NCBI GenBank assembly: GCA_947488625.1
Contig: CANKZR010000005.1
Location: 1 to 64,000 of the forward strand
Reading direction: 5' to 3'
DNA from: an uncultured Sphingomonadaceae bacterium
GTDB lineage: Bacteria; Pseudomonadota; Alphaproteobacteria; Sphingomonadales; Sphingomonadaceae
Length of the DNA stretch: 64,000 nucleotides
Positions 37,055 through 52,349 of the stretch are shown here, piece after piece (within the stretch, counting starts at the first letter, position 1; the number at the start of each line of letters is the position of its first letter). Both the position numbers and the translations under genes were made by a program. The notes beneath the pieces were generated by a model. The model saw only the letters and a list, made by a program, of their open reading frames with translations, had not been told where the DNA came from and did no database searches.

Positions 37055-39964
37055 ATGCTCTCTATCGCCAATGTGCGTTCGCCCTCTGCTGCCGCCAGCT
37101 ACTTTGCCGACGACAATTACTATGCCCGGGCCGATGCCGATCGGTCCGGGCAATGGGTCGGCGAAGGCGCGAAATCGCTTGGTCTATCGGGGCGCGTCGA
37201 GACCAGGCAATTCGATGCCTTGTTGCGCGGTGAGCTCCCCGATGGATCGAGCGTCGGCAATCCTGGCCAGGCGCATCGGCCAGGCACAGATCTTACCTTC
37301 TCGCTGCCCAAGAGCTGGTCTCTGCTGGCGCTGGTGGGCAAGGACGAGCGCATCGTCGCCGCCTACCGCGAGGCGGTAACCGAGGCCCTCAAATGGGCCG
37401 AGAAAAATGCTGCAGAAACCCGCCTTGTCGAGCGCGGCAAGGTAAAGACCGTTGCCACCGGCAACCTTGCCATCGGCCTCTTCCAGCATGACACCAACCG
37501 CAACCAGGAGCCCAACCTGCACTTCCACGCGGTCGTTGCCAATGTGACTAAGGGCGCAGACGGCAAGTGGCGCACACTCAAGAACGACCAGCTCTTTGCG
37601 CTCGGCACCCTGCTCAACTCGATGGCTATGGCGCGCTTCCGGATCGCGGTCGAGAAGTTTGGCTACGAGACCGGACCGGTCGGTAAACACGGCAATTTCG
37701 AGGCGCGCGGGATCGCGCGCGAGCAGGTGATGGCTTTCTCCTCGCGACGCAAGGAAGTGCTCGAAGCGCGCCGTGGTTCGGGGCTGGAAGCAGGCAAGAT
37801 CGCGGCGCTCGCGACCCGTTCGCCCAAGCAGCCGATCGAGGATCGCGCGGTGCTGGGTGAGCAATGGCAGGCGGCGGCGCAGGCTATCGGCCTCGACCTC
37901 CCGCGACTGGTCGATACTGCCAAGACACGGGCCAGCGAGCGGGAAGCTGCCAGTGCGAAAGTGCCCAATCTGGTCGAGCGCGGTTTGGCGATGCTCAAGG
38001 ACTTTGCGGCACGCATCAAGGGCAAGGAACGCGATCCGCTCGTTCCCGATCATGTCCTCAAGCGGGGGACTCAGGAGATTGCGGCGGCTCAGGCCGTGGC
38101 CTCAGCAGTGCGTCACCTGTCGCAGCGCGAGGCGGCGTTCGTGCGCGAAGATCTGTACAAAGCAGCACTCGATTTTGGATTGCCGACGACCATCGCGCAT
38201 GTCGAGAAGGCGGTGCGCTCACTGGTGCGTTCGGGGCAGCTGCTGCGGGGCAAAGGCGAGCACAAGGGGTGGCTGGCAAGCCGCGAAGAAGTCGAGCGCG
38301 AGGGGCGCATCCTCGCCTGGGCAAATGAAGGCAAGGGTGCAGTCGAACCCATCTTCACCGAACGGCGGGCCGAGGCCAGCGTCCAGGCATCGGCGCTCGT
38401 CAATCAGGGCTTCAAGCTGAACGAGGGGCAACTTGGCGCTGCGCGGCTTATCCTGACTTCGCGTGATCGGACCGTGGCTGTGCAGGGCGTTGCCGGTGCG
38501 GGCAAGTCGAGTGTCTTGAAACCTGTCGCCGATGTGCTCCGCGAAGAAGGTCGCAAGGTGCTCGGACTCTCCGTGCAAAACACGCTGGTGCAGATGCTTG
38601 AACGCGACACGGGCATTGAGGCGCAGACGCTCGCGAGCTTCCTCAAGCGTTGGGGAGCGATCAGCGAGGGGGAGGGCCGTTCCGGCCTCGAGCGCGAGGC
38701 GAAGAAGGAACTGGGCGGCAGTGTCCTTATCCTCGACGAGGCTTCGATGATCTCCAATGCCGACAAGGAGCAACTCATTCGCATCGCCAATCGCGTTGGT
38801 GCCCATCGGCTTGTTCTCATGGGCGATCGCAAGCAGTTGGGTGCGGTCGATGCCGGCAAGCCGTTCGATCTCCTGCAGCAGGGAGGAATTGCCCAGGCGC
38901 AGATGAACACCAATTTGCGCGGCCGCGATCTGGTCCTGCGCGAGGCACAGGCGGCAGCGCAAGCGGGACTGGTTCGCACGGCGCTCGACCATCTCAAGGA
39001 GAACACGGTCGAAGCCAAGGGCGATGGAGCGATCGTTGCGGCTGAGCGCTGGTTGGCGCTCTCACCGGAAGAGCGGGAGAGGACCGCGATCTATGCTTCG
39101 GGCCGCAAGATCCGCGCCGCCGTCAACGAGGCAGTCCAGACCGGCCTTGCTGCCAATGACGTGATCGGCCCGGAGAAACTTCAGCTCGAAGTTCTGGACC
39201 GCGTCAATCTCACGCGCGAGGAACTGCGCTACCTTGCCGCTTACAAGCCCGGCATGGTTCTCGAGGTCGCAAAACTCGAACGCGCGCTTGGTCTCAAGCG
39301 CGGTGAATATGCGGTTCGCAAGGTCGATGACCGCAAGGACACTGTCGAGCTTGAGGACAGGCAAGGCAGGCTGCACGAGCTCAAGCCGTCAAGGATCGGC
39401 AGAACGGGCAAGGACGACAATCTGTCGTTGTTCGACCGGCGTAAGCTTGAAGTCCACCAGGGTGACCGCATTCGATGGACCAGGAACGATCACCGTCGCG
39501 GGCTGTTCAATGCCGACCAGGCTCGGGTTGTCCATGTCGATGGCGACCGCATCACTGTCGAGACCACCAAGGGTGCCGAGCACAGGCTCGGCAGGAACGA
39601 TCCGATGCTGAAACGCCTCGACCTCGCCTATGCCCTCAACGCCCACATGGCGCAGGGTCTGACTTCGGACCGCGGCATAGCCGTGATGGACAGCCGCGAG
39701 CGCAACCTCGCCAACCAGAAGACTTTCCTCGTGACTATCACGCGGCTGCGCGACCACCTAACACTCGTGGTGGACAGCGCTGCGAGGCTCGGCGCAGCAG
39801 TTTCGAAAAACAAGGGCGAGAAATCATCGGCGCTCGAGGTGACCGAGCGTTTGAAGGCCGCTGCGCAGGTCGGGGCGGGCAAAGATACCACTGAGATGAA
39901 CCCCAAGTCTCCCGAACCGGAACTCGCCAAGGAGCGCAATCGGTCGATGGACTTCGGGATTTGA
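37055..39964 (+). CDS. traI: MobF-family relaxase/helicase (TraI/TrwC type, 969 aa)
   Basis: The N-terminal relaxase domain begins MLSIANVRSPSAAASYFADDNYYA with tandem tyrosines for nicking and has the metal-binding PNLHFHAVV (about residue 154). The C-terminal RecD2-like helicase has Walker A GVAGAGKSS (about 477), Walker B LILDEASMIS (about 560) and GDRKQLGAVDAG. Its length equals TrwC of R388, much shorter than TraI of F. It nicks oriT, stays bound to the 5' end and pilots the strand into the recipient. The ATG at 37055 follows GGAGGATTAGGGCA. Confidence 0.93.
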   Translation: MLSIANVRSPSAAASYFADDNYYARADADRSGQWVGEGAKSLGLSGRVETRQFDALLRGELPDGSSVGNPGQAHRPGTDLTFSLPKSWSLLALVGKDERIVAAYREAVTEALKWAEKNAAETRLVERGKVKTVATGNLAIGLFQHDTNRNQEPNLHFHAVVANVTKGADGKWRTLKNDQLFALGTLLNSMAMARFRIAVEKFGYETGPVGKHGNFEARGIAREQVMAFSSRRKEVLEARRGSGLEAGKIAALATRSPKQPIEDRAVLGEQWQAAAQAIGLDLPRLVDTAKTRASEREAASAKVPNLVERGLAMLKDFAARIKGKERDPLVPDHVLKRGTQEIAAAQAVASAVRHLSQREAAFVREDLYKAALDFGLPTTIAHVEKAVRSLVRSGQLLRGKGEHKGWLASREEVEREGRILAWANEGKGAVEPIFTERRAEASVQASALVNQGFKLNEGQLGAARLILTSRDRTVAVQGVAGAGKSSVLKPVADVLREEGRKVLGLSVQNTLVQMLERDTGIEAQTLASFLKRWGAISEGEGRSGLEREAKKELGGSVLILDEASMISNADKEQLIRIANRVGAHRLVLMGDRKQLGAVDAGKPFDLLQQGGIAQAQMNTNLRGRDLVLREAQAAAQAGLVRTALDHLKENTVEAKGDGAIVAAERWLALSPEERERTAIYASGRKIRAAVNEAVQTGLAANDVIGPEKLQLEVLDRVNLTREELRYLAAYKPGMVLEVAKLERALGLKRGEYAVRKVDDRKDTVELEDRQGRLHELKPSRIGRTGKDDNLSLFDRRKLEVHQGDRIRWTRNDHRRGLFNADQARVVHVDGDRITVETTKGAEHRLGRNDPMLKRLDLAYALNAHMAQGLTSDRGIAVMDSRERNLANQKTFLVTITRLRDHLTLVVDSAARLGAAVSKNKGEKSSALEVTERLKAAAQVGAGKDTTEMNPKSPEPELAKERNRSMDFGI

Positions 39965-40053: not shown

Positions 40054-41268
40054 CTAGTCTGGCTCTTCGCCAGTATCGGCATCGCGCTCGAGGAAAACCA
40101 AGCCGGTGCCTGCTTGTTCCGTCGCCAATTGTGCCTTGTCTACAGTTTCCCACTCTCCTCGGATCCACATCGAATATAACTCGAAGGGGTCGTCCTGCTG
40201 CTGCGCGGGGTCTGCGTAGGTTGCAGTCTCAACATACGGGATGCCAACCTTGAGGCGTCTTCCAGGTATTTGGCCGTATAAATGATCGTAGCAGGCCAAT
40301 AATACTGCGATGGATAATAGTTTGGACGAGAGCGGCGACACGAACGCCTTGCAACCACCGAGCTCGTTCAAGGCACGCCGGTAGCGGTCCATCGCTTCAA
40401 ACACTTGCTTGTAGGCCTCAAACGGGTTGTATTCACAGGCGAGCAGGATGTTGCGCGGCTCAACTTGAAAAGTGTCGAATAATAGATCGCGATGTTCGAA
40501 GATGATCTCATCCCCGCGGCGTGGCGACCGAGTCGGGAAGGGAACAACTGGACATATCTCGTCGGGGGTCAGCTTTTGATAAATCCTATCTAGCCGATCG
40601 CGTTGATTCTCTCCGAGTACTGGGAGCCAGACGTGCGGAAGGTCCTTCGTCGTCAGGGCAGTTAGTTCGCCAGAGAAGCCACGTACGAACGAGACCTGAT
40701 CCCGCAGCGAGCCTCGCCCTGCGGCCAAGTCCGCAGTCACACTTTCAGCCGTAGTAACGTGGAGATTTACGCATTTTCCGCTACCGGGTGGATTGTCGAG
40801 CCAATGCAGCAGAACGGCGACGCTGGTCATGGCGACCATCCGGGGCATTGCGCTGATATCGACAACCACGTCGTCATAAGCCATGGCGTCGCCCGCTGCC
40901 CTAATCTGCTCGTATGTCTTCAGCGAAGCTATCGGGTCTTGGAACGCACCGCCGAGGTCGATTGGGATCTCCTTAATGCGGTCTGCTGGAAACAGTAGGC
41001 TGAGCCCCTGGACGTTGTCGTCCGTTCGTTTGCGACGTTCATCGCTGTCCTCTTGGCCGTTGTGGAAGGCAAGGAGCCATACATCGATGTTTGCGCCAAG
41101 CGCCCGTAGGCGACGCGCGGTCTCCAATGCCCGGACGTCAAACCCCTTACCGACGACCAGCAATAATTGACGCTCCCTCACCGCCAAGTGGCGCTTCCAG
41201 AAGACGTCGAATTCCTCATCATTCGTCAACGAATAAGGATCCCAGCGCATCACTGCCTCGTCAGACAA
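40054..41268 (-). CDS. Unrecognised Rossmann-like protein of the PRTase/ORC operon (404 aa)
   Basis: I do not recognise this family. It shows two possible alpha/beta units. One opens LLLVVGKGFDVRALETARRL (residues 36-55) and continues to VVVDISAMPRMVAMTSVAVLL (about 134-154). The other includes ILLACEYNPFEAYKQV and FVSPLSSKLLSIAVLLACYD. The DISAMPR turn is reminiscent of ligand-sensing loops in CARF-like Rossmann domains, but that is only analogy. The frame begins at a TTG (41268) overlapping the ATPase gene by 8 bp; ATG 41250 with GACGAGG upstream is equally possible. It is the last gene of the operon and may be a sensor or substrate adaptor. Confidence 0.7.
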   Translation of the reverse strand: MSDEAVMRWDPYSLTNDEEFDVFWKRHLAVRERQLLLVVGKGFDVRALETARRLRALGANIDVWLLAFHNGQEDSDERRKRTDDNVQGLSLLFPADRIKEIPIDLGGAFQDPIASLKTYEQIRAAGDAMAYDDVVVDISAMPRMVAMTSVAVLLHWLDNPPGSGKCVNLHVTTAESVTADLAAGRGSLRDQVSFVRGFSGELTALTTKDLPHVWLPVLGENQRDRLDRIYQKLTPDEICPVVPFPTRSPRRGDEIIFEHRDLLFDTFQVEPRNILLACEYNPFEAYKQVFEAMDRYRRALNELGGCKAFVSPLSSKLLSIAVLLACYDHLYGQIPGRRLKVGIPYVETATYADPAQQQDDPFELYSMWIRGEWETVDKAQLATEQAGTGLVFLERDADTGEEPD

Positions 41269-43159
41269 ATGTAGGCTCCTCTTCCTTGCCGCCGAATGTT
41301 TGCCAAGCGATCAGGTCTTTGATCTTCTTCTCACGCCAGCCGCCATATCCGAGCGGCAACCCGAACTGCACACAGAGCAACCGGTTCAAGTAGAACACTA
41401 CGAACTTCTTGTTCTTGTTGCTGTGGTCGAGCCGCGGGACGAGAAGATTGTGGGCGACGAGTGAAGTGAGCACGTCACGCAGCCCGCGAAGGTGCTTGAT
41501 CTGGTCGTCGGGAGCGTCGATCAGTGCCTCGCGGTCCTGCATCGTAATCCCAATCCCAGTAACGCCGGGCATGTACGGCGCCGTCTCTCTGAATGTCTGT
41601 GAATGGCAAAACGTGCCGATGCCTTCGAGGAGTGTCTTTGCGTCTCGCCCAAGCGGAAGTCGGCGGGTGAGGTCGTCCCATCGCGCCTTAGCGACAGCTT
41701 TGATGATGCTGTGTTGACGGTCGGCAGATAGCGGCATCGGGTTGTCCCGCACGAACTGGATCTTGGCCGAAATTTCCTCGAACAACTCGCCAGCGACGGC
41801 GAGGTATTGTTCGATGTTGAATGAAGAGACATCTGCTATCGCGTCGCGGCCGAAGTATATTGGTGCGCCTATCTCTGTCCGTACGAAGTGTTCGGCCGCC
41901 CGTGCGGCACCGCTGCCCCCCCTTTTTTCGAACTCGTCGTTGGAAAGAGCGACAAAATCGAAAGCCTGCTGCTCCTTGCGCATGTCGCGTGCGACCAAGA
42001 TCTCGGCCATCCGCCATTGGACGGCTCTCTCGACTGCGCTGCCCTTCTTTGCGCGCGCCCTATCAAGCCAGATATCGTAGCGCGGCGATGTCCCCTTGGC
42101 GGCAACGATTCTTGCTTCGATATTTGCGCATGCCTCATCGAACCTGGGCGCCCACACTGCCAGGTCATCGCTCTCCGATATGAGCGTAAATAGATCTCGG
42201 TCGCCAAAGTTGTCCGCCTTTGCTGCGCGCAACTGGGCGATGTTTTCAACGAACCGGGCATAGGCCACGCCGCGCTTGTCACTCCACTGCCGCTCGAGCT
42301 GGATTACGCCGTTGTAGTCGCGGTTCTCAAGCGCCCCCTCGGATAGTAGATCCTTGTGCGTGAGGGTTTCGAGGCGTTCAGCAATCCAAACGCCGCATTG
42401 TGGGCGCGCTGATGTCACGAAGTCGAGGAGCGATCGCCGTTGTCCAGCTGACAGTGCCTGTAGCTCGTCGAAGAGTAGGACTCGCCTGACATTCACAATA
42501 CCAAGAGGTTCGATGATGCGGGTGTTGGCGAACCATTTCAGGCCGTCCAACCGGGCATGTCCTCCTTGAACTGGTTTGGGTTCACCGAGCACATCCATCC
42601 GCCCGTAGAAATCGGTTTCGATCTGCGACGCCCAGTCGAACAACTCTTCGCCGGTCGCAGCGGCAGGGATTGTGCTTCCTGACTCGGGTTCCCACTCGAA
42701 GCTGATTTGTCCGAGATCTCGCGGGAATGGCCGACCAAGCCGCTCAAGCACTGCGCGCAATGTCGCGATTACAATCCGCGAGTTGACGAGTTCGCGGAAA
42801 AGCGCGTTTCCGCGGTCGAACGCGGCAAGCTCGCGGAACTCACTGGTGAACTCGACCATAGAGCCCAGAAGTTCGGGCCCGTCAGCGCCGATGGCGCCGA
42901 CGGCGCGCAACGCCTCTTGCGTTGCTTTCACAGCCGAGCTGCCGCTCGCCAACGAATTGGCGAGGCCGAGCGGGCGAGGTGTCATAAGTCGAAGGAAGGT
43001 GGTCTTACCGCCGCCTGGCGCGCTGCGTAGGAAGGAGACGCTTCCCCATGGATCGTCAATGTTGTGGACCAGGTCAATCGCGCCGGCACCAAACAGCCGG
43101 ACGAACTCTTCGTCGGAGGTAGCACGCTGCGACGCACTTATGCGGAATGGATTCCTCAC
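41261..43159 (-). CDS. ORC/CDC6-type AAA+ ATPase (632 aa)
   Basis: The protein starts at GTG 43159, overlapping the upstream stop by 4 bp (GTGA). The longer frame to 43231 would only repeat the neighbour's DNA. Walker A is SAPGGGKTTF (about residues 46-55) and Walker B RVLLFDELQAL (about 222-232). The C-terminal half is helical and ends with a region that could be a winged helix (LTSLVAHNLLVPRL). Such stand-alone ORC-like ATPases occur in predicted bacterial conflict systems with a phosphoribosyltransferase-like partner. It is probably the switch of this operon, gating the partner through nucleotide binding. The role is inferred. Confidence 0.78.
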   Translation of the reverse strand: MRNPFRISASQRATSDEEFVRLFGAGAIDLVHNIDDPWGSVSFLRSAPGGGKTTFLRLMTPRPLGLANSLASGSSAVKATQEALRAVGAIGADGPELLGSMVEFTSEFRELAAFDRGNALFRELVNSRIVIATLRAVLERLGRPFPRDLGQISFEWEPESGSTIPAAATGEELFDWASQIETDFYGRMDVLGEPKPVQGGHARLDGLKWFANTRIIEPLGIVNVRRVLLFDELQALSAGQRRSLLDFVTSARPQCGVWIAERLETLTHKDLLSEGALENRDYNGVIQLERQWSDKRGVAYARFVENIAQLRAAKADNFGDRDLFTLISESDDLAVWAPRFDEACANIEARIVAAKGTSPRYDIWLDRARAKKGSAVERAVQWRMAEILVARDMRKEQQAFDFVALSNDEFEKRGGSGAARAAEHFVRTEIGAPIYFGRDAIADVSSFNIEQYLAVAGELFEEISAKIQFVRDNPMPLSADRQHSIIKAVAKARWDDLTRRLPLGRDAKTLLEGIGTFCHSQTFRETAPYMPGVTGIGITMQDREALIDAPDDQIKHLRGLRDVLTSLVAHNLLVPRLDHSNKNKKFVVFYLNRLLCVQFGLPLGYGGWREKKIKDLIAWQTFGGKEEEPTFV

Positions 43160-44277
43160 GGCTGTTGCAGCTTTCGGTGACGACTGACACGTGGGAACAG
43201 CCCGCGCACAGTTTGTACGTCTTCGGCCCAAAGAATGTAGACTGAGTTGTTCGGCGTATTGTGGTTGAGCACAAGCGGCAGTCGCCCATCAGCGTAGCCA
43301 TACCGCTTCGTGCTGCCACCTACAGCGCCGTGCTCGTCGTCTGCTTCGGCGTCGAAGTAACGGTCATCGGCCATGAGCGTGAAGAACGCGGCATCCCGCG
43401 ACTTATCGAGGGGGACCTCCTGCCCGAGCTTGCAGACAACCTCGAATTCGACGGTGCCTTTGGAGAACGGTAGCTTTGGGAGTAGCTTGCCGATGTGCTC
43501 GATCGCTTGTTCGCTCGCTATGTAAGCGATAATGACCACCTTCACGCCTTGAATCACACTCGCGCCTAAGCGCTCATCCAACTCAAGGTCCTCAATGATC
43601 TTTGGGATCTTGCCTTTCCATTTGTCGGCCTTCTCATCATAGCGTATCGCGCTAGTCCCGCTGGCGGTGAAGTCGTCGAGTAGTACGACGGTTTCGAATA
43701 GTGCCTCGTCCCCAGTAGGCTCGACCCCCGATATCTCGGTCAAATCCTTCTTGAGGTTATTGACCATGTCGGAACTCTTGACCTCTGAAACGTCGTAAGC
43801 GTGGAATACCTGCTCGTTAGAAATTGCAGGGTTGGCGCGTCGAAACCAGTCGGTGCGCGCGCCGTCGCTCATGCCAAGATAAAGCGTTCGTCGATGGAGA
43901 GTGCGGTATTCAACAGTCTCCGTAATCGCCTTGATCCAGTCAAGCGGCAAGCCGCCACGTGCACTCGCGGTTTCTACCAGCCTTGGCCTTACGACTGTGG
44001 GGAAAGTCAGTTCTACCAAATGGTTTATCTCGGCCGCACTAAAGAAGATTAGGCGGTTGCAGACGAAGTCATAGGCGGTTCGGCGCTGGCTTCCGACGTC
44101 AAACTGCGCGAGCCAGAGTGCGAGACTCTCGATGAATCGACGGCCTGGTGAGAACTGTTGATACTCATCGTACTTATAGCTAGCGAACGTCTCCAGTCGC
44201 GCTCGCTCGCGCGCCTTTTCCTGATCAGTCCAGTCCATGATTTTGGCCAAGAGAGCCTCGGCCAACTCTTTCTTCAC
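43156..44277 (-). CDS. Phosphoribosyltransferase-like protein (373 aa)
   Basis: A classic PRPP-binding loop, VVLLDDFTASGTSA (about residues 195-208), is visible, with hydrophobic strand, two acidic residues and glycine/threonine turn as in type I phosphoribosyltransferases. The rest is unlike biosynthetic enzymes: a long helical N-terminal ~150 residues and a C-terminal extension ending with WAEDVQTVRGLFPRVSRH. The start is GTG 44277 after GGGAGCGACTGC. In predicted conflict operons this domain is proposed as effector, consuming PRPP or modifying a nucleotide. It is coupled to the ATPase by GTGA overlap and lies 96 bp after the HTH gene. Confidence 0.8.
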   Translation of the reverse strand: MKKELAEALLAKIMDWTDQEKARERARLETFASYKYDEYQQFSPGRRFIESLALWLAQFDVGSQRRTAYDFVCNRLIFFSAAEINHLVELTFPTVVRPRLVETASARGGLPLDWIKAITETVEYRTLHRRTLYLGMSDGARTDWFRRANPAISNEQVFHAYDVSEVKSSDMVNNLKKDLTEISGVEPTGDEALFETVVLLDDFTASGTSAIRYDEKADKWKGKIPKIIEDLELDERLGASVIQGVKVVIIAYIASEQAIEHIGKLLPKLPFSKGTVEFEVVCKLGQEVPLDKSRDAAFFTLMADDRYFDAEADDEHGAVGGSTKRYGYADGRLPLVLNHNTPNNSVYILWAEDVQTVRGLFPRVSRHRKLQQP

Positions 44278-44373: not shown

Positions 44374-44799
44374 TTAAGCGGCGGTCTTTCCCACAGGTGG
44401 TGCATCCGGTTTGTCTCCTTTTGAGCGACGGCTTGACCTTGCCTTGGCGACGGCGTCGATCACCGCAACTAGCAAATCTGCCCCTTGCGGTGTTTGGTCC
44501 CAAGCGCGCCGAACAGATGCCTCGAGTTTAGCCCAAGCGGCACGCTTCTTGATCTGCGTAGGGCTGGGATCCGAGTCATCCGCATTATGCGGATCGACGC
44601 CAAGAACATTGCAGATTCGCAATACGTTTCCGCTGACTGTGCGGAACTTGCCATCGAGAATTCGGGAAGTTTGTCCGGGATCCACCTCCGCAATCGCAGC
44701 GAGTTCGGCGTTTGAGAGAGGAGAATTCGCCCGTCGCTTCCGGATCAGGCCGGCCAACTTTTCCCTTTCCTCCTGATTCGGTTTCATGCATATTAGCAT
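44374..44799 (-). CDS. XRE-like helix-turn-helix regulator (about 137-141 aa)
   Basis: A helix-turn-helix region (LSNAELAAIAEVDPGQTSRILDGKFRTVSGNVLRICNVLGV) is visible at about residues 25-68, quoted here by its parts NAELAAIAEV and QTSRILDGKF. It is followed by a basic, unstructured C-terminus. Starts at 44799 or 44787 are both possible and neither has a clear ribosome site; both lie inside the 35-bp dyad. That position strongly suggests autorepression together with control of the divergent NADAR gene. A longer frame to 45132 is a shadow of NADAR. Confidence 0.75.
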   Translation of the reverse strand: MLICMKPNQEEREKLAGLIRKRRANSPLSNAELAAIAEVDPGQTSRILDGKFRTVSGNVLRICNVLGVDPHNADDSDPSPTQIKKRAAWAKLEASVRRAWDQTPQGADLLVAVIDAVAKARSSRRSKGDKPDAPPVGKTAA

Positions 44800-44821
44800 G
44801 ACATTTTGATGCAAATATGCA
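44787..44821. promoter_or_regulatory. 35-bp near-perfect dyad between HTH and NADAR genes
   Basis: The arms are TGCATATTAGCAT (44787-44799) and ATGCAAATATGCA (44809-44821), which pair with one central mismatch, separated by GACATTTTG. The dyad covers the start of the HTH gene and ends just before the NADAR ribosome site (TAGGAG, 44823). It is a strong candidate operator for both operons. Confidence 0.75.
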
Positions 44822-44835
44822 ATAGGAGTTAGCTG

Positions 44836-45324
44836 ATGGCCGAGGACGAGATCCGATTTTACCGGGCGAACGAGAAGCCCTACGGCGCGTTCAGCAACCT
44901 GTATCGTCGCTCTGTTGATTTTGAGGGTGAGACTTTCCCGACCAGTGAGCACGCCTATCAAGCCGGCAAGGCGAGAAAGAAGGAAGTCCGCAACTGGTTG
45001 CTGTCCGCGCCGTCTCCAGCGCTGGTCGCGATGGCCGCACATGGCCTTTATTACTGGGATATCGCCCCCGGCTGGTCGCGGACAAAATTCGATCGGATGC
45101 GCGGAGTTCTTCGCGCAAAGTTCACCCAGCATGAGGACCTTAAGGATCTTCTCTTGTCGACCGGCGATGCTCGCCTAATTGAAAGCGCCACCGTCGATAA
45201 CGAAGTCAATAGGCTGTGGGGCGAGGTTAACGGCCAGGGACGGAACATGCTTGGGGAGCTCCTGATGGAGCTTCGGGCGAGCTTCCGTGATGAAGTGGAC
45301 GGCCTAACTCGCAAGGTGGCCTGA
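44836..45324 (+). CDS. NADAR (YbiA-like) N-glycosidase domain protein (162 aa)
   Basis: The protein is one NADAR domain: FYRANEKPYGAFSNLY at residues 7-22, FPTSEHAYQAGKA near 38-50, a central YYWDIAPGWSRTKFDRMRGVLRAKF (in parts YWDIAPGW, DRMRGVL) and C-terminal GRNMLGELLMELR. Family members cleave N-glycosidic bonds, including removal of ADP-ribose from guanine or breakdown of damaged riboflavin intermediates. Here it is divergent from a phosphoribosyltransferase/ATPase operon across a shared operator. It could act as antidote or as NAD-related effector; context cannot decide which. Its stop lies 9 bp from the convergent kinase gene. Confidence 0.88.
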   Translation: MAEDEIRFYRANEKPYGAFSNLYRRSVDFEGETFPTSEHAYQAGKARKKEVRNWLLSAPSPALVAMAAHGLYYWDIAPGWSRTKFDRMRGVLRAKFTQHEDLKDLLLSTGDARLIESATVDNEVNRLWGEVNGQGRNMLGELLMELRASFRDEVDGLTRKVA

Positions 45325-45333
45325 CTTTTTTAC

Positions 45334-46272
45334 TCAGAATTCGGCTAGGATTGCTCTGACATATTCTGGACCGCGCTCCCGAAAGAGTCCACGCGCGCCA
45401 ATGTAAGCGCAATTTGCTGCAGCGAGACGCTGACCCGACTTCACGCCCGACAGCACGATTGGAAGCGAAAGCGAGTCGGAAGTACGGACGTCGTTTTGAA
45501 TGATCATGTCGATGAGACCAAGTGTGACCATGTCGCCCGCGCCGCAAGTGTCCTGTACAACGTCGACGTCCATCGCTTCACACCGATATGTCGCACCATC
45601 GTGCCGCACCTCTAAGCCCGATCTTCCAGCGGTAACGATGCTGAATGCCTCGGGCCTTAGCTTCTCGGCCATTTCAGGCTCGAGTCGGTCCACCGAGTAT
45701 TTAAAAATGTGCGCAACCGACATTGCGCGGTTGAAGAGGTCGAGATCCGACACCTCCGAAGGCTCGAAGTGAACGATCGCACCCCCGGCAGCCGCGGCCT
45801 CCATAGCGTCGCAGATCGCATCTGACACCCGATCTGCGTAGAACACAGTGCAAGCAGATACCGCCGGTCGCGCGGGCTCGAGTTCACGCAGTGTGATAGG
45901 CTCGTAACCGCCAAATCTCTCGAACGAGTGGGGGCAGACCAACGAGAAACTGTGATCTTTCGACGCGATATCAAGTAGCTCGACGATCACAGGTGTTCTG
46001 ACTTCATGATCGAGCCAGACGAGCCTCGTGTCGGCTCCGGCAAGACGCAGGTCACGCTCTAGCCGCGCCCCTATGGGGTCGGTCCCAAGGCGGAGCAGAG
46101 GTGTCACTGAGAAGCCAAGCATTGCCAGCGAGATCAGCACGTTCCCGCACGATCCACCCAATTCCTCGAAAAGTGGTGCCCGTTCATCAACATGGATTCG
46201 GTCTAGCGCGACCAGCCCCGTCCCGACCACTTGGCCATAAGGTCCGCATGTTGAATGCTTGTGGAGGCTCAT
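45334..46272 (-). CDS. PfkB-family sugar/nucleoside kinase
   Basis: The 312-residue protein has the ribokinase fold: GTGLVALDRI near the start, GGSCGNVLISLAMLG as substrate-binding region (about residues 40-54), and the C-terminal anion hole and base DTCGAGDMVTLG with Asp near 247. Family members phosphorylate sugars, nucleosides or related small molecules; the substrate is not predictable here. It overlaps the upstream SIS-HAD gene by 4 bp (ATGA) and is surely co-translated with it. It is convergent with NADAR. Confidence 0.88.
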   Translation of the reverse strand: MSLHKHSTCGPYGQVVGTGLVALDRIHVDERAPLFEELGGSCGNVLISLAMLGFSVTPLLRLGTDPIGARLERDLRLAGADTRLVWLDHEVRTPVIVELLDIASKDHSFSLVCPHSFERFGGYEPITLRELEPARPAVSACTVFYADRVSDAICDAMEAAAAGGAIVHFEPSEVSDLDLFNRAMSVAHIFKYSVDRLEPEMAEKLRPEAFSIVTAGRSGLEVRHDGATYRCEAMDVDVVQDTCGAGDMVTLGLIDMIIQNDVRTSDSLSLPIVLSGVKSGQRLAAANCAYIGARGLFRERGPEYVRAILAEF

Positions 46273-48179
46273 GAAAGACTCGTGCCGAGGGAATTGAGAT
46301 CGAACCGAGCATGCCCGTTTTCAGTCCGGAGCGCTCGCAGAATCTGCACTAGCGCGGCGGGGCCCGACGTAACGTTTCCGAATAGCGACCAGCTCCCGCC
46401 GAGGTGACCGCACACACCGTCGACGCTCACGCTTGGCGGTCGACCTAAAAGCTCGTTGTCGTTGCCACCCGGCTCGCCGCTATCGCCAATCGCCAAAACC
46501 TCATGCTCAGCGCCAATTCGACGATGCATTTCATCGGTGACCGTCGTTTTGCTCGACGACGATGGCAGAATGTCGACGCTGTGATGTGAGCTTAGTACTT
46601 TGATTCGACCCTTCGCCACGGCTGGGAATTCTGCCACCAGTGCGGCGAACATCAGTGGGTCGGTCAATTCGCTATGTCGTATCGTTATCTGCACTTCGCC
46701 GCGCTTGAGATGGATGCCTGGGGCGAGCAGTGACTGCCCCTCAATCCAGTCGGCGAATGCCAGCAGTTCGGGATTGATCTCCGGCCGATCGTTTTCGACG
46801 TCCACGTCCAGCATGCGTACGTGGCCACCATTGTAATAGCCTACCGTAACGGCGTGATGCAGCCGCTCGGGCAGCGCCTTTCTCAGCGCGATGCCTGCGG
46901 AATGTCCGCGCCCTGTAGCGAAGCCGATCGCGATCCCAGAATCGGCCAGCCGGATGAGCTCGGAAATGATTTCCCCTGCGGGCGGATCTAGCCGTGACTC
47001 TGTGGTGACGACAGTTCCATCATAGTCGAGAAGGATGCCGCCAATGTGAACGCTCGAAAGGCGTTTCAGCCAATTGTTCCGTGCTTCGGTTGCCATGATT
47101 GATGGGCAAGTCGGATCGTCGTGGTATTGCACTGCTTGCATTTTATGTCGCACTGCAGGGCAGAGTGTGCAGGCCAATTTGGCAAGGCCGGTGTCGTCGT
47201 AGATTGCACCGGCGAAGTTACCATGACCTGGCTTGCCTGGATCGATACCGACGGCGCTGCCAAGGGAACGGACGATTTCGAGGCCATTTGCAATGGAGGT
47301 TGCTGTCCTGAATCGGCCAGCATGTCCGAGGTCGATCTCGACCATGCGGACTGTACTCGGAAAGGCGTCTCGAATGGTTGCCCAAATGTCGCGTGACGTG
47401 GACGCCGTCACAGCGATAACAAGCATATTCTCTGGGTGCCTGGCTGCCCAGACGTGCCGCCCGTGAGCAAAGTTTCGAAAGTCGGTGCACTGCACCGGCG
47501 CGATTGCGGTTTCCCACAACGAGGTCTCGATGAGCGTAGCAATTGTTCGGCACTGCGGGTCGTGCAGGACAACAACAGTGTCGCCTGTACTGATTTCTAT
47601 GGCAATGGGTGCCGCCGCGATGTGCTCGAACTCATCCGCCAAGTCATTTATTGTTTTAGTCGAGCCGGTGCGCGTCGATAACTTGTCCGCAGCGCCGAGC
47701 ATGCAAGTTACCATGGCGACGAGCGAATGCGTAGCAAGAAACCCGTCCTTGCGATCCGCCACTGGTGCGACGATTATCCGGGAGCGACTGTCGCTCGCCG
47801 CAGTAATGGTTGCGGACCCTGTTGCGTTGACAGTGAGCAATTTCACGCCAGTTGCCGCCGATCTGAGTGCAGCTGTCATCGCTGCGATTGCGTCGGGGTT
47901 GTCGGCACCGGCGCTGAAAATCCACACGTCGCTTCCGGATAAGTCTTCTTCCGACACGACGAAATCCATCGGTGTCTGTACTATCGTCTGTCCGTGCCCA
48001 AGCGTTGAGCGGCAACGGGCGAAGAACTCTGCCATGATGGCCGACCCGCCCGAGCCAATACCGACTGCAGGCCTGCCAGCACTCTCTTGCAACGCTTCAG
48101 CGAGTGCATGAAGCGGTCCGCCGTTTCCAAGACGAACGGTATCGACCAGCGTCGATAGTTTTTCGGCAAAGACTGTCAT
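46269..48179 (-). CDS. SIS domain-HAD phosphatase fusion protein (636 aa)
   Basis: Residues about 30-360 resemble a phosphosugar-isomerase-type (SIS) tandem, with GIGSGGSAIMAEFFARC (about 40-56) and TDFRNFAHGRHVWAARHPEN near 235-254. Residues about 378-610 are a HAD hydrolase of Cof/sucrose-phosphatase type: LLDYDGTVVTTES (motif I), FATGRGHSAG (motif II), SSKTTV (motif III lysine) and AIGDSGEPGGND (motif IV). Both halves look intact. The fusion would bind a phosphosugar and dephosphorylate it or a product. It is the first gene of an operon with PfkB, which can phosphorylate a sugar, so together they make or remove a ribose/hexose phosphate. Confidence 0.82.
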   Translation of the reverse strand: MTVFAEKLSTLVDTVRLGNGGPLHALAEALQESAGRPAVGIGSGGSAIMAEFFARCRSTLGHGQTIVQTPMDFVVSEEDLSGSDVWIFSAGADNPDAIAAMTAALRSAATGVKLLTVNATGSATITAASDSRSRIIVAPVADRKDGFLATHSLVAMVTCMLGAADKLSTRTGSTKTINDLADEFEHIAAAPIAIEISTGDTVVVLHDPQCRTIATLIETSLWETAIAPVQCTDFRNFAHGRHVWAARHPENMLVIAVTASTSRDIWATIRDAFPSTVRMVEIDLGHAGRFRTATSIANGLEIVRSLGSAVGIDPGKPGHGNFAGAIYDDTGLAKLACTLCPAVRHKMQAVQYHDDPTCPSIMATEARNNWLKRLSSVHIGGILLDYDGTVVTTESRLDPPAGEIISELIRLADSGIAIGFATGRGHSAGIALRKALPERLHHAVTVGYYNGGHVRMLDVDVENDRPEINPELLAFADWIEGQSLLAPGIHLKRGEVQITIRHSELTDPLMFAALVAEFPAVAKGRIKVLSSHHSVDILPSSSSKTTVTDEMHRRIGAEHEVLAIGDSGEPGGNDNELLGRPPSVSVDGVCGHLGGSWSLFGNVTSGPAALVQILRALRTENGHARFDLNSLGTSLS

Positions 48180-48357: not shown

Positions 48358-48993
48358 TTAAAGCGCCCGCCCGAACCAGATGACCCGCCCGACCACGTGC
48401 ACTTCGGAGCGGTCCATGTCGTTCCACGTCGGATAGGCAGGATTGTCGCTGGCGACGGTGATCTGCCTCGCTCCTGGCTTAATGGCGATGCGTTTGACAG
48501 CCAGCACATCGTCAGTGCGCAAGACATAGATGCCATCGCGCAAGCGCGAACCATGGTCCGATGCATCAACGAGGACCTCGTCACCGTCGCTCAGAGTAGG
48601 TTCCATTGAATCCCCCAGCACGCGTACAATCGATAGGCTGGCGCTCTTGGCGGGGGTCAGTGCGCGCAGCCAGCGTTCGTCGAAACCGAACCTGGTGTAA
48701 GCGTTTTCGCTTGCCGCAATCGCCCCGAACCCGGCCGAGGCCTGCACATCGAGGATGGGGATTTCGACCATTCCGTCGTTGTCGCTCTTTTCCGGGCCAC
48801 CGAGCACGTGCTCATCGACCCCCAGGAAGGAGGCGAGCATACGGCGATCCTCGGGTTCGAGCGTCTTTGGCGAACCGCGCTTGATGAACTGCTGGATGTA
48901 GCTGGGGTTGCGACCGAGCATCCGCGAGATCGCGGCATAGCCGCTTCCCCGCTCACGCAGGAGCCGGTCGAGCTCTTGTCGGACATGTTCCAT
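48358..48993 (-). CDS. CI/LexA-like repressor with S24 peptidase domain
   Basis: The 211-residue protein has an N-terminal HTH (GYAAISRMLGRNPSYIQQFIKRGSP, about residues 18-42, in parts AISRMLGRN and SYIQQFIKRG). The C-terminal S24 domain carries the serine in RVLGDSMEPTLSDGDEV (about 125) and the lysine in DDVLAVKRIAI (about 163). Such proteins self-cleave when RecA is activated, releasing repression on DNA damage. It is divergent from two small genes, with a double inverted repeat between them. It lies at the border of the accessory island and the transfer operon and may control either. Confidence 0.9.
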   Translation of the reverse strand: MEHVRQELDRLLRERGSGYAAISRMLGRNPSYIQQFIKRGSPKTLEPEDRRMLASFLGVDEHVLGGPEKSDNDGMVEIPILDVQASAGFGAIAASENAYTRFGFDERWLRALTPAKSASLSIVRVLGDSMEPTLSDGDEVLVDASDHGSRLRDGIYVLRTDDVLAVKRIAIKPGARQITVASDNPAYPTWNDMDRSEVHVVGRVIWFGRAL

Positions 48994-49643: not shown

Positions 49644-52349
49644 TCACCATTCCTTGATTTCGTCAGCCGCTTCCTCGGTGGCCCCGCGAGCATTGCGCGT
49701 GCGGCTCTGGAGGTATTCTCCAACGCTATCGACCCGTTCGCCGCCACGGCTTTGCACACGGTCTACAGCGCGGCCGATATCCTCCCGCGCGGATGAGGGG
49801 TCCGACAGTCCTCCCGGCACCGAACTCAGACGGACAGACCCGCGGACGTCACCTCTGCTACCCACACTCGGGCGCGAGATCGGTGCGACTGCAGGCAAGG
49901 CAAGGTCGCCCTCGATATCGTCGTGAATCCGCTCGGCGTAACTTGCGACAAAGCGCGCCTGCAGTTGCTGTCCGGCTGGGCTCATCTGGAACGCGATGTC
50001 GTCGAAGCGCACGGGACCATAATAGTCGCGATTGGCTTCGATCTCCGCCATACCCCATTCGCGATAGGCCTGGCTCAGATTGAGCGTGCCGGCCGCATTG
50101 GCGCTTTCGTACCAACTGGCCTGGTCTTCGAGACGGCTGGCGAGTTCCTCGGCGCGCCGGGCTTCGATCGTATAGCTTTGAGCCTCGGTAAGAGAAGTGT
50201 TGAGACCCGAGGCGGTTGTCGAGACGAGACTTTCGGAACTGGAACTGGTCTCCCGGAGGAAACCCTCGCGCGTGCTCGACCAGTTGTTGCTCTCGGAAAT
50301 CTGGCGCAGCGTCGAGAGCAGCCGTGACCGATCCTCCGAAGCAATGCCGATATCGCTGTCAGTCCAGCTTTGCTGGCGTCCCCCACGCAATCCGGCATCG
50401 CCGCGAATATTGCCTCGATTCCCGCGCGCACCGATTCCGGCCTCACCATTCAGGAACCAGGACACAGTGATGTCGTCCGAGGCCCGCCGCGACAGCCCGA
50501 ACTGCTGCTGCAGTGTGCGCGAAGCATTGTCGATCTCACTGAAGGTTGTGCCGATGCTGTCTCCCGAGGAGGTGCCGCTGACGGTCTCGTTCGACTGGCC
50601 GGTCGAATAGGCATCGCGCAGCTCGAAGAACCGGGTAACCGCCGAGCTCGTCGATTGCTGCGCAAGGTTCGAATAGGTCTCGCTCTGGCTGCGGCTTTGT
50701 CCGGCAATGGTCGAGAGCCTGCTCGAGAAGTCCGATCCCAGTGTCGGTGAGAAGGGATAGCTCGAGGTCGGGACATGGGCGAATTCGGCATCGGGAAAGC
50801 CCGTGGTCTGCGTCCCACTATCGCCGAAACTGCGCGTCTGGCCCGCGCCATAGGCGATGTTGGGCGCCAGATTGCCCTGCGCGAATTGCCGCGAAAAGAC
50901 CGACGAATTCTCAAGGTTGGTGTTGCCGAGCGAGATGTTCCCCGTGCTCGCCTCGCGCGCGGCTTCCTCGGCAGCGCTCTGGCTCGGATTGAGGTAGGAG
51001 GTCGCCTGGCCCGAGATGGCCATGGCGCCGCGCGCCACGCCGCCTGCAAGGAACGGAATTGACGCAACGAGATAGCCGGCGAGCACACCGATATCGGAAT
51101 TTACATCGGACATGCCGGCGAATGTCGCGAGGCTGAGGCCGGTATCGCCGCCGGCAGCTGCGACATCGCTCGCACCCTTGAACATGAGGATCATGTGGAG
51201 GATCACGAAGAGCGGCCCCCAGGCGGCAAGGTAGAAGAAGCCGGTCACATAGCCACGCAGCGCAATCGGCCCGGTCCGTGGCATGAGGAAGAGCGGGAAG
51301 AGCACCGGGAAGAGAGCGTAGAAGACGACCGTCAGCACCACATTGAGGATGGGCACCCATTTCATCGAATTCTGCGCGATCGAAGAATAGGTGCGCTCGG
51401 TCTGGATATCGGCGCGGGTCTGGGCAAAGACATCGATGCTGCCCATGCCGCTTGCTCCGGCAAATCCGTGCATCGCCTGGTTCATGGCGTTGATCGAGAG
51501 CACCTGGCGGAAGATATCGCTGGCATTGCTCGAGACGCCAGAGAGGTAGCTGTAGGCAATCGGCAGGTCGGCAAAGAGCTTGGCGCGCGCCAAGGCCTCG
51601 GTCTGCCGCGGATAGAGCTGGCGCCCGAAGGCCGTCCCCATGTCGTCGATGAGGCTCGCCCACTGGGCGCCAAGTGTGTTGTAGGCTTCGCGGCAGGTGG
51701 TGACGACCGAAGTCACCTCGCCAGTGTTGACATCGCGGATGAGGAAGCGCTGCGCGCGCGCTTCGCTACCCGGGCCGATCGTGGCCCAGATATCGGCGGA
51801 CTGGCTAAGCTCCTGCATCGAATAGCGGCCCAATAGCACGTCGTAGAAGACGCATTGCTTGAAATGCTCGTCGAGATTGGCGGCGAATTCCGGATCGGAA
51901 ATGCGCAGGCCCCTGGTCGCCTCCAGGAGCCGTGTGCCGTAGATCATCCCGTTCTTCGAGTAGTTGAGATCGTCGGGCAGGCCGAAGACCAGTTCGGCCG
52001 AGCGGGTAAGATAGTCGCCCGCCTGGCTGGTGAAACTCGCCATCAGCGCAAGGCCCAGCGGGACATTGGCGACTTCTGCAGGCGCGAGGCTCGGATTGAC
52101 GCGGTCGGTGACATGGACGTCCATGCGCGGCACCATCAGGCACATGTAGATGAGCGTTGCGCCGAGAAACCAGTTTACCCAGGCGCGCCAGTCCTGGTTG
52201 AAGGCGAGCACGATGACGCCAAGCCCCATGCCCATGACCAGCGCAACCTGGATCAGGCTCTTGTAGCCGCCTGCGCCGGTCCAGGCGGCGACCGCGTTGA
52301 AGACGTTGACGAGATATTCGCCGCCGCCAACCGTGTAGACTTCGACCAT
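49644..52349 (-). CDS. traG: TraG-type mating-pair stabilisation protein (901 aa)
   Basis: The N-terminal ~470 residues form the TraG_N membrane domain: segments near 35-60, an LYMCLMVPRM-like stretch near 75, and a cluster at 330-440 with PILNVVLTVVFYALFPVLFPLF. The last ~430 residues are a Ser/Thr/Gln-rich periplasmic or coiled tail. TraG assists pilus assembly and stabilises mating pairs in F-type systems. It is the last gene of the long transfer operon, 10 bp after traH. Confidence 0.9.
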   Translation of the reverse strand: MVEVYTVGGGEYLVNVFNAVAAWTGAGGYKSLIQVALVMGMGLGVIVLAFNQDWRAWVNWFLGATLIYMCLMVPRMDVHVTDRVNPSLAPAEVANVPLGLALMASFTSQAGDYLTRSAELVFGLPDDLNYSKNGMIYGTRLLEATRGLRISDPEFAANLDEHFKQCVFYDVLLGRYSMQELSQSADIWATIGPGSEARAQRFLIRDVNTGEVTSVVTTCREAYNTLGAQWASLIDDMGTAFGRQLYPRQTEALARAKLFADLPIAYSYLSGVSSNASDIFRQVLSINAMNQAMHGFAGASGMGSIDVFAQTRADIQTERTYSSIAQNSMKWVPILNVVLTVVFYALFPVLFPLFLMPRTGPIALRGYVTGFFYLAAWGPLFVILHMILMFKGASDVAAAGGDTGLSLATFAGMSDVNSDIGVLAGYLVASIPFLAGGVARGAMAISGQATSYLNPSQSAAEEAAREASTGNISLGNTNLENSSVFSRQFAQGNLAPNIAYGAGQTRSFGDSGTQTTGFPDAEFAHVPTSSYPFSPTLGSDFSSRLSTIAGQSRSQSETYSNLAQQSTSSAVTRFFELRDAYSTGQSNETVSGTSSGDSIGTTFSEIDNASRTLQQQFGLSRRASDDITVSWFLNGEAGIGARGNRGNIRGDAGLRGGRQQSWTDSDIGIASEDRSRLLSTLRQISESNNWSSTREGFLRETSSSSESLVSTTASGLNTSLTEAQSYTIEARRAEELASRLEDQASWYESANAAGTLNLSQAYREWGMAEIEANRDYYGPVRFDDIAFQMSPAGQQLQARFVASYAERIHDDIEGDLALPAVAPISRPSVGSRGDVRGSVRLSSVPGGLSDPSSAREDIGRAVDRVQSRGGERVDSVGEYLQSRTRNARGATEEAADEIKEW

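Follow-up and report, generated by a model that had tools for sequence, protein, structure and literature searches.

A gene for a helix-turn-helix (HTH) regulator and a gene for a NADAR family protein face away from each other on a contig of an uncultured Sphingomonadaceae bacterium. Their ATG codons have 48 nt between them, and a near-perfect dyad of 35 bp reaches into this gap. What does the dyad control? The original prediction was that one regulator could hold both divergent operons silent from here, and that NADAR therefore belongs with the PRTase operon on the other side. We analysed a stretch of 64,000 nucleotides around the dyad (the window, Table 1) together with homologous loci from other genomes, plasmids and viral contigs.

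We propose that the dyad is a two-site operator of the HTH protein. The HTH protein would repress its own gene and NADAR as well, and the HTH mRNA would be leaderless or nearly so. We give this reading a probability of about 0.74. Two results pull the odds in opposite directions: the control for the dyad strengthens them and the slight lead of the best promoter register weakens them.

Table 1. Features of the window around the HTH and NADAR genes.
Feature	Position	Strand	Details
Dyad, inner parts of O1 and O2	44787..44821		35 bp
O1, 14-bp palindrome, putative primary operator	44786..44799		minus strand ATGCTAATATGCAT
O2, second palindrome copy	44809..44822		plus strand ATGCAAATATGCAA
XRE/Cro-C1-type HTH regulator	44374..44787	-	137 aa, without ribosome site
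NADAR ribosome site	44824..44828	+	AGGAG, duplex -6.8 kcal/mol
NADAR family protein	44836..45324	+	162 aa, PF08719 E 9.1e-26
PRTase-CE protein	43156..44277	-	373 aa (GTG open frame), PF24390 E 5.3e-20
ORC-CDC6-like ATPase	41261..43231	-	open frame to 43231, PF24389 E 1.4e-18
CARF-family protein	40054..41268	-	404 aa, PDLC01910 (CARF6) E 4.3e-111
PfkB-family kinase	45334..46272	-	convergent with NADAR, 9 nt between stops
HAD-family phosphatase	46269..48179	-	N-terminal part presumably SIS-like

Two palindromes between the HTH and NADAR genes

The dyad lies exactly where the original prediction placed it. Its arms (44787-44799, TGCATATTAGCAT, and 44809-44821, ATGCAAATATGCA) are 13 nt long, complementary at 12 of 13 positions and separated by a loop of 9 nt. 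Even with 3 mismatches allowed, the pattern occurs at a single place in the window and at a single place in the 3,212,743-base genome. By itself the dyad is only moderately unusual. We counted dyads with 13-nt arms, at most one mismatch and a loop of 3-20 nt. When the local 100 nt are shuffled by dinucleotides 5000 times, 6 shuffles give such a dyad. The whole window contains dyads of this quality at 5 places, compared to a mean of 0.8 and a largest count of 4 in 60 shuffles. The dyad is significant because it is conserved across species.

The dyad is better understood as a 14-bp palindrome, ATGCwAATwwGCAT, that is present twice; we call the copies O1 and O2. Because both copies are palindromes, they look like one long dyad. 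The end of O1 falls inside the HTH start codon, and O1 also overlaps the putative -10 element of HTH. O2 contains a -35-like TTG of HTH and adjoins the NADAR ribosome site; in the window its centre is 23 bp from the centre of O1. In the own genome, the motif is found at one mismatch or fewer only at O1 and O2. Hence, the regulator should be a local one.

The two palindromes also modify what had been said about the ends of the dyad. It was thought to cover the HTH start. The dyad includes just the first base of the start codon (44785-44787, minus strand), and it is the underlying O1 that overlaps this codon. The dyad does not touch the NADAR ribosome site, as had been claimed: 2 nt separate AGGAG from the dyad and 1 nt separates it from O2.

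Conservation of the putative operator across loci

To follow the operator through homologous loci we use 19 loci with a readable HTH start: the window, L003-L016 and L025-L028. The HTH gene has a match in 4 of 298 genomes of its own family, the own genome included. One scan of genome contigs yields 5 HTH loci. Plasmids contribute 5 records with an HTH match (S. meliloti entered through NADAR) and viral contigs 1 partial HTH locus. In profile searches the HTH protein is present in 6 of 396 genomes of the order, 1 of 385 of the class (the own genome only) and 4 of 398 of the phylum, again with the own genome included; these surveys and that of the family partly overlap. The HTH gene is absent from all 12 other genomes of the own genus within the order survey, which suits a mobile unit. 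The named loci come from Sphingomonadales, Hyphomicrobiales and Rhodospirillales, where the order of some loci from genome contigs is our presumption.

Second copies (L001, L002, L023, L024, L033-L039, L041 and L042) are counted once. We left out L029/L040, L030 and L031, which are distant HTH matches with 3 mismatches in the best operator-like match, and the viral contig L032, where the best operator-like match also has 3 mismatches. L017, L018, L021 and L022 contain no HTH match. Since the loci lie on mobile DNA and are partly related, 19 loci are not 19 independent cases.

In a gap-free alignment on the HTH ATG, the O1 14-mer covers positions -12 to +2 and reads ATGCwAATwwGCAT. At this same position, 18 of the 19 loci agree with ATGCAAATTTGCAT in at least 10 of 14 bases. 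Among 95,000 trials with shuffled intergenic sequences, 0.08% reach this level at a fixed place. The exception is L010, where O1 retains 5 of 14 bases and 2 of 7 pairs, and O2 13 of 14 bases. We also compared 12 representatives of HTH clusters at less than 60% identity, whose proteins are 26-55% identical in pairs. Among these, mean 14-mer identity peaks at 0.83 exactly at O1. Elsewhere in the 130 nt it is mostly 0.3-0.55 outside the slope of O1, with a small rise around O2. Symmetry has its maximum at O1 too (on average 5.2 of 7 pairs, and 0.4-3.6 in other registers).

A search for the same dyad between HTH and NADAR homologues, which the original prediction had proposed, thus recovers O1. 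The two-arm form, with at least 9 of 13 arm pairs, is conserved in 12 of 19 homologous loci; control positions taken from these loci reach this level in 1.8% of cases. The other 7 loci fall below 9 pairs. We rejected the 35 bp as a single dyad only. Two sites are preferred because O1 alone is nearly invariant and persists where O2 decays.

O2 is more variable than O1. Both sites match the consensus in at least 9 of 14 bases in 14 of 19 loci (exceptions L010 and L013-L016), and their centres are 22-24 bp apart across loci, about two helical turns. In L013-L016 the O2 palindrome has decayed save for the TTG, which suggests a -35 role apart from the operator role. This TTG is present in all 19 loci, at -34, -35 or -36 from the HTH ATG in 1, 6 and 12 loci, respectively.

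Covariation was tried as a proof of symmetry and rejected. Symmetric O1 pairs are hardly more common than column composition predicts, and the symmetry of O1 therefore rests on the consensus, with a single paired change (-9/-2 T-A in L015).

Where else does the operator occur? L027/L038 keeps the HTH gene and its operator although 17.5 kb of this locus yielded no NADAR or module gene, an indication of autoregulation. A further operator before the PRTase or HAD genes was considered and dropped: in the 19 regions upstream of PRTase (9) or HAD (10) genes we found no operator-like site, and the best match had at least 4 mismatches in every region, like most background segments. General control of PRTase operons by such a site, as implied earlier, is therefore not supported.

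Start and putative promoter of the HTH gene

The second HTH codon reads AAA or AAG in 18 of 19 loci and GAA in the remaining one, L005; third positions are variable. Hence, coding begins at or before the ATG in Table 1. An upstream in-frame start at 44797-44799 (-12) was rejected: this codon is not ATG in L010, and an in-frame stop follows it in L015 and L016. It is TTG in L006, L007 and L011.

The HTH gene was said to lack a visible ribosome site, and this is the case in all 19 loci, where no duplex with the anti-SD sequence is stronger than -2.2 kcal/mol. For NADAR, the duplex reaches -5.1 kcal/mol or stronger in 15 of 18 loci; among the exceptions, L004 and L006 are scored at an alternative upstream start and L013 is weak.

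The putative promoter register of HTH in 12 loci consists of TTG at -36, 17 nt, a weak TATGCA- or CATGCT-like -10 element and 7 nt to the ATG. In the window it is TTG at -35, 16 nt and CATGCT. On the HTH strand the highest mean score, 6.3 of 12, belongs to the -36/17-nt register. Its lead is small (6.3 vs 5.8), and L010 scores 1. A strict sigma-70 promoter scan finds no site between HTH and NADAR, which leaves weak promoters or promoters of a different kind. We also tried to place the NADAR promoter and dropped the attempt, as none of the registers stands out.

The absent ribosome site fits a leaderless mRNA. Most likely, the HTH transcript is leaderless or nearly so and starts at or within a few bases of the AUG. 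We infer this start, because the -10 element is poor, the register lead slight and the strict scan empty. In Methylorubrum 7% of mRNAs are leaderless, according to excerpts of PMC9320726.

The module around the putative operator

In the window, PRTase-CE is the first structural gene behind HTH. The ORC-CDC6-like gene likely starts at the GTG at 43159, overlapping the PRTase stop, as in the annotation of L011. The CARF-family protein has no Pfam match. The NADAR domain matches with 91.5 bits (curated cut-off 35.1). We take the N-terminal part of the HAD protein to be SIS-like, partly from a weak AgaS match (E 0.014). A gene for a LexA-like S24 peptidase repressor (48358-48993) lies just upstream of the HAD-PfkB operon. 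None of the eight window genes scanned (NADAR, PRTase-CE, ORC-CDC6-like, CARF, PfkB, HAD, HTH and the S24 repressor) is a restriction endonuclease or methyltransferase.

Gene order differs between loci. HTH and NADAR point away from each other in all loci but L027 (18 of 19). PRTase and ORC genes, followed by CARF where the contig extends, lie behind HTH in nine loci: the window, L006-L011, L014 and L026, with the L007 module interrupted by a contig end. For another seven (L003, L004, L005, L012, L015, L016 and L028), the PRTase set lies beyond HAD on the PfkB side. The order in L013 is NADAR, HAD, PfkB, then PRTase and ORC. No PRTase gene was found near HTH in the stretches fetched for L025 and L027. 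In L025 we found only PfkB, NADAR and HTH, beside a frame that we take to be transposase-like. L036 (8277-16328), one of the second copies, is reduced to PfkB-NADAR-HTH with an intact operator; the adjoining frame is presumably transposase-like and one nearby presumably TrwC-like. S. meliloti has two PRTase-ORC-CARF sets: on pRRI128_5 (L014, 3352-15529), diverged PRTase-CE/ORC/CARF sets flank one HTH-NADAR-PfkB-HAD unit.

In 17 of 18 loci the 3' ends of NADAR and PfkB meet, with anything from 50 nt of overlap to a gap of 24 nt. Their stops abut or overlap in the window (45316-45340) and also in L006-L012, L014-L016, L033-L037 and L039. Abutting stops leave little room for a terminator, so antisense interference is possible.

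Does NADAR belong with the PRTase genes, as the original prediction argued? Among plasmids it does: the eight best NADAR matches of 35 records (69.6-87.5% identity, thus all those of at least 69%) adjoin PRTase-CE genes in a module locus, 8 of 8. For the next two matches (48%), no other module gene was found in the 16.5 kb fetched. NADAR belongs with the PRTase-CE/ORC/CARF/PfkB/HAD module. It looks like an accessory of the module, because 10 of 18 plasmids with PRTase-CE are absent among the 30 of 35 NADAR records listed.

According to excerpts of PMC11833690, enzymes of the NADAR family take ADP-ribose off guanosine in RNA and, by works cited there, in DNA, and N-glycosidase activity is also reported for members of the family. 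In Ter systems, pairs of PRTase and HAD proteins are proposed to make nucleoside-like signals (parts of PMC7824862 and PMC5512222). By analogy, such signalling would be in keeping with a CARF protein in the same module. Genes for a TrwC-type relaxase and TraG_N (37055-39964 and 49644-52349) flank the module in the window, making it cargo inside conjugation genes. A related module in Sulfitobacter (L021) lies between relaxase/transfer genes and virB11. On the viral contig L032 (5400-6114) an N-terminal piece of PRTase is in frame with a C-terminal piece of HTH, and by eye the fused pieces adjoin an apparent tRNA 3' end. This is a module remnant at a possible integration site.

The HTH protein and known systems

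The HTH domain is of Cro/C1 (XRE) type. In Pfam the protein matches HTH_31 (E 2.2e-5, 25.1 bits) and HTH_26 (E 2.4e-4, 21.7 bits), both slightly below the curated cut-offs of 27 and 22. Its relatives are annotated as helix-turn-helix regulators. The predicted model (mean pLDDT 72) has four helices between residues 5 and 62 and two more at the C terminus. A profile search against the PDB gives 7 matches: C.BclI (E 0.002), ClgR (E 0.0027), a prophage protein, C.AhdI (E 0.0063) and three weaker ones. ClgR is thus as near to HTH as the C proteins. The fold search has ClgR at the top, together with SinR, C.BclI, C.AhdI, P22 c2 and 434 Cro (E 0.002-0.04), and no match below E 0.001. The PADLOC Control_protein match is weak as well (E 0.0095). 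Further weak matches are to couple_hipB and, in the PDB, to HipB and HigA2.

By analogy, the unit may work like a C-protein or phage-repressor switch. C proteins such as C.AhdI, C.BclI, C.Esp1396I and C.Csp231I are also small XRE-type HTH proteins with two palindromic operators before their own gene, and the HTH mRNA may be leaderless like theirs. C proteins have two operators before their own gene, with a C.Esp1396I site that also measures 35 bp (PMC4041747), the operators of C.Csp231I have a long spacer (PMC4321490), and C-protein transcripts are commonly leaderless (PMC4824078). However, our motif ATGCwAATwwGCAT is unlike their GACT/AGTC or CTAAG-n5-CTTAG (PMC4824078, in part). The sites here overlap the putative core promoter, and HTH is divergent from NADAR. 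HTH has 137 aa, with an added C-terminal helical part, compared to chains of 77 in C.BclI and 74 in C.AhdI. In the module we found neither a restriction gene nor one for a methyltransferase. Since the unit contains no restriction gene that we could find, it is not a restriction-modification controller.

Phage repressors are a second comparison. Lambda cI and P22 c2 are XRE-fold repressors between divergent promoters with tandem operators, and the lambda cI mRNA is leaderless. The predicted HTH repressor has the same arrangement. It differs in having no second repressor, just two sites, and NADAR as the divergent gene. Toxin-antitoxin regulators of the HipB/HigA type autoregulate from palindromes and resemble HTH in fold and in weak profile matches. 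HTH, however, has no toxin gene in a two-gene operon and is divergent from NADAR. The other module genes match the families of PRTase-CE/ORC-CDC6-like sets with CARF (PF24390, PF24389, PADLOC CARF6). Unlike some of these sets, the module here includes an HTH/NADAR unit with an operator: the PRTase-CE sets L021 and L022 have no HTH or NADAR match, and L017 and L018 have NADAR without an HTH match.

Discussion

The sequence, its conservation, the gene order and the absent ribosome site are seen directly. From these we infer HTH binding, repression, transcript starts and two dimers. An HTH dimer would bind the 14-bp palindrome O1, and a second dimer would bind O2, whose centre lies 22-24 bp, or about two helical turns, from that of O1. 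HTH would thereby repress itself, because O1 covers its putative -10 element and start codon, and O2 its -35-like element. NADAR would also be held low, because both sites are upstream of or at the expected NADAR transcription start. The HTH mRNA would start at or near the AUG and be translated without a leader, and NADAR would be translated via its normal ribosome site. In the layout of the window, PRTase-CE, ORC-CDC6-like and CARF lie behind HTH and may be limited along with it. Judged by gene order, such control of both operons is not general, with PRTase genes directly behind HTH in only 9 of 19 loci. The comparison of layouts shows HTH and NADAR (18 of 19) as the constant predicted output. 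Of the idea that one regulator silences both operons, the part concerning HTH and NADAR thus remains likely, and the part concerning PRTase could apply only to those nine loci.

The closest alternative is a full C-protein circuit, in which HTH would first switch its own operon on through one site and then, at high level, repress it, so that the effectors of the module come late in a new host. Two spaced palindromes before a regulator gene that looks leaderless, the mobile location, the weak C.BclI and C.AhdI matches and the habits of C genes (commonly leaderless in PMC4824078, with two operators in PMC4041747 and PMC4321490, each seen in excerpt) all agree with it. We nevertheless consider it unlikely: O2 sits on the -35 and O1 on the -10 and start, not upstream of the -35, which suits repression, and O2 is lost in L013-L016. 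Since the sites overlap the putative core promoter, simple repression is the likelier mode. Could the conserved block instead be an overlapping promoter pair (TTG at -35, -10 in O1), with an incidental palindrome and an HTH protein that acts elsewhere? The TTG persists at -34 to -36 in all 19 loci despite the decay of O2, and the best promoter register coincides with the block. Yet conservation spans the whole O1 14-mer and does not stop at the -10 element; the genome has two good copies, two turns apart, and no other at one mismatch or fewer; and L027 retains the block though NADAR is absent. A promoter pair is therefore improbable.

It is even harder to assign the site to a host regulator in place of the HTH protein. 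At one mismatch or fewer, the host genome has the motif nowhere else, and the motif travels with HTH across several bacterial orders, which makes a host regulator very improbable. A role as RNA (hairpin, attenuator or terminator) has hardly any chance. O1 and its flanks form a terminator-like stem on the plus strand (TCATGC-ATATTA-GCATGA, 6 pairs), but the stretch contains 2 terminator-like sites where shuffles lead us to expect 1.0. Moreover, the element lies where both genes should have their promoters and would not be part of a leaderless HTH mRNA, and its sequence is conserved, not pairing alone.

The two-site HTH operator can be extended to a broader, doubtful proposal. HTH, operator and NADAR would be a portable cassette that controls the PRTase-CE/CARF modules carried by plasmids and conjugative elements. 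It would contain a timer akin to C proteins, self-repressing and leaderless, that resets the whole module. NADAR and PfkB are tail to tail, so derepressed NADAR transcription would run antisense into PfkB-HAD. If this proposal is true, the timer sets NADAR, as a protective or resetting enzyme, against the other module genes, and one small protein resets the entire module after transfer or attack.

Excerpts of PMC12839542, PMC9503650, PMC13092281, PMC11833690, PMC5512222, PMC7824862 and PMC9122126 do not describe a module with NADAR and HTH. Its absence from print is weakly supported, with supplements and most subscription journals outside our search. The PRTase-CE/ORC-CDC6-like/CARF module with PfkB, HAD and NADAR is a defence-like cargo of mobile DNA that has been little described. 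With an operator of its own it would have a testable regulatory handle, with NADAR nearly always wired to the regulator. The operator fixes the start codon of HTH and leads us to expect a leaderless mRNA, and its motif can serve to search other Alphaproteobacteria for the unit. Should the operator be confirmed, the logic of restriction-modification controllers would extend to a non-restriction module.
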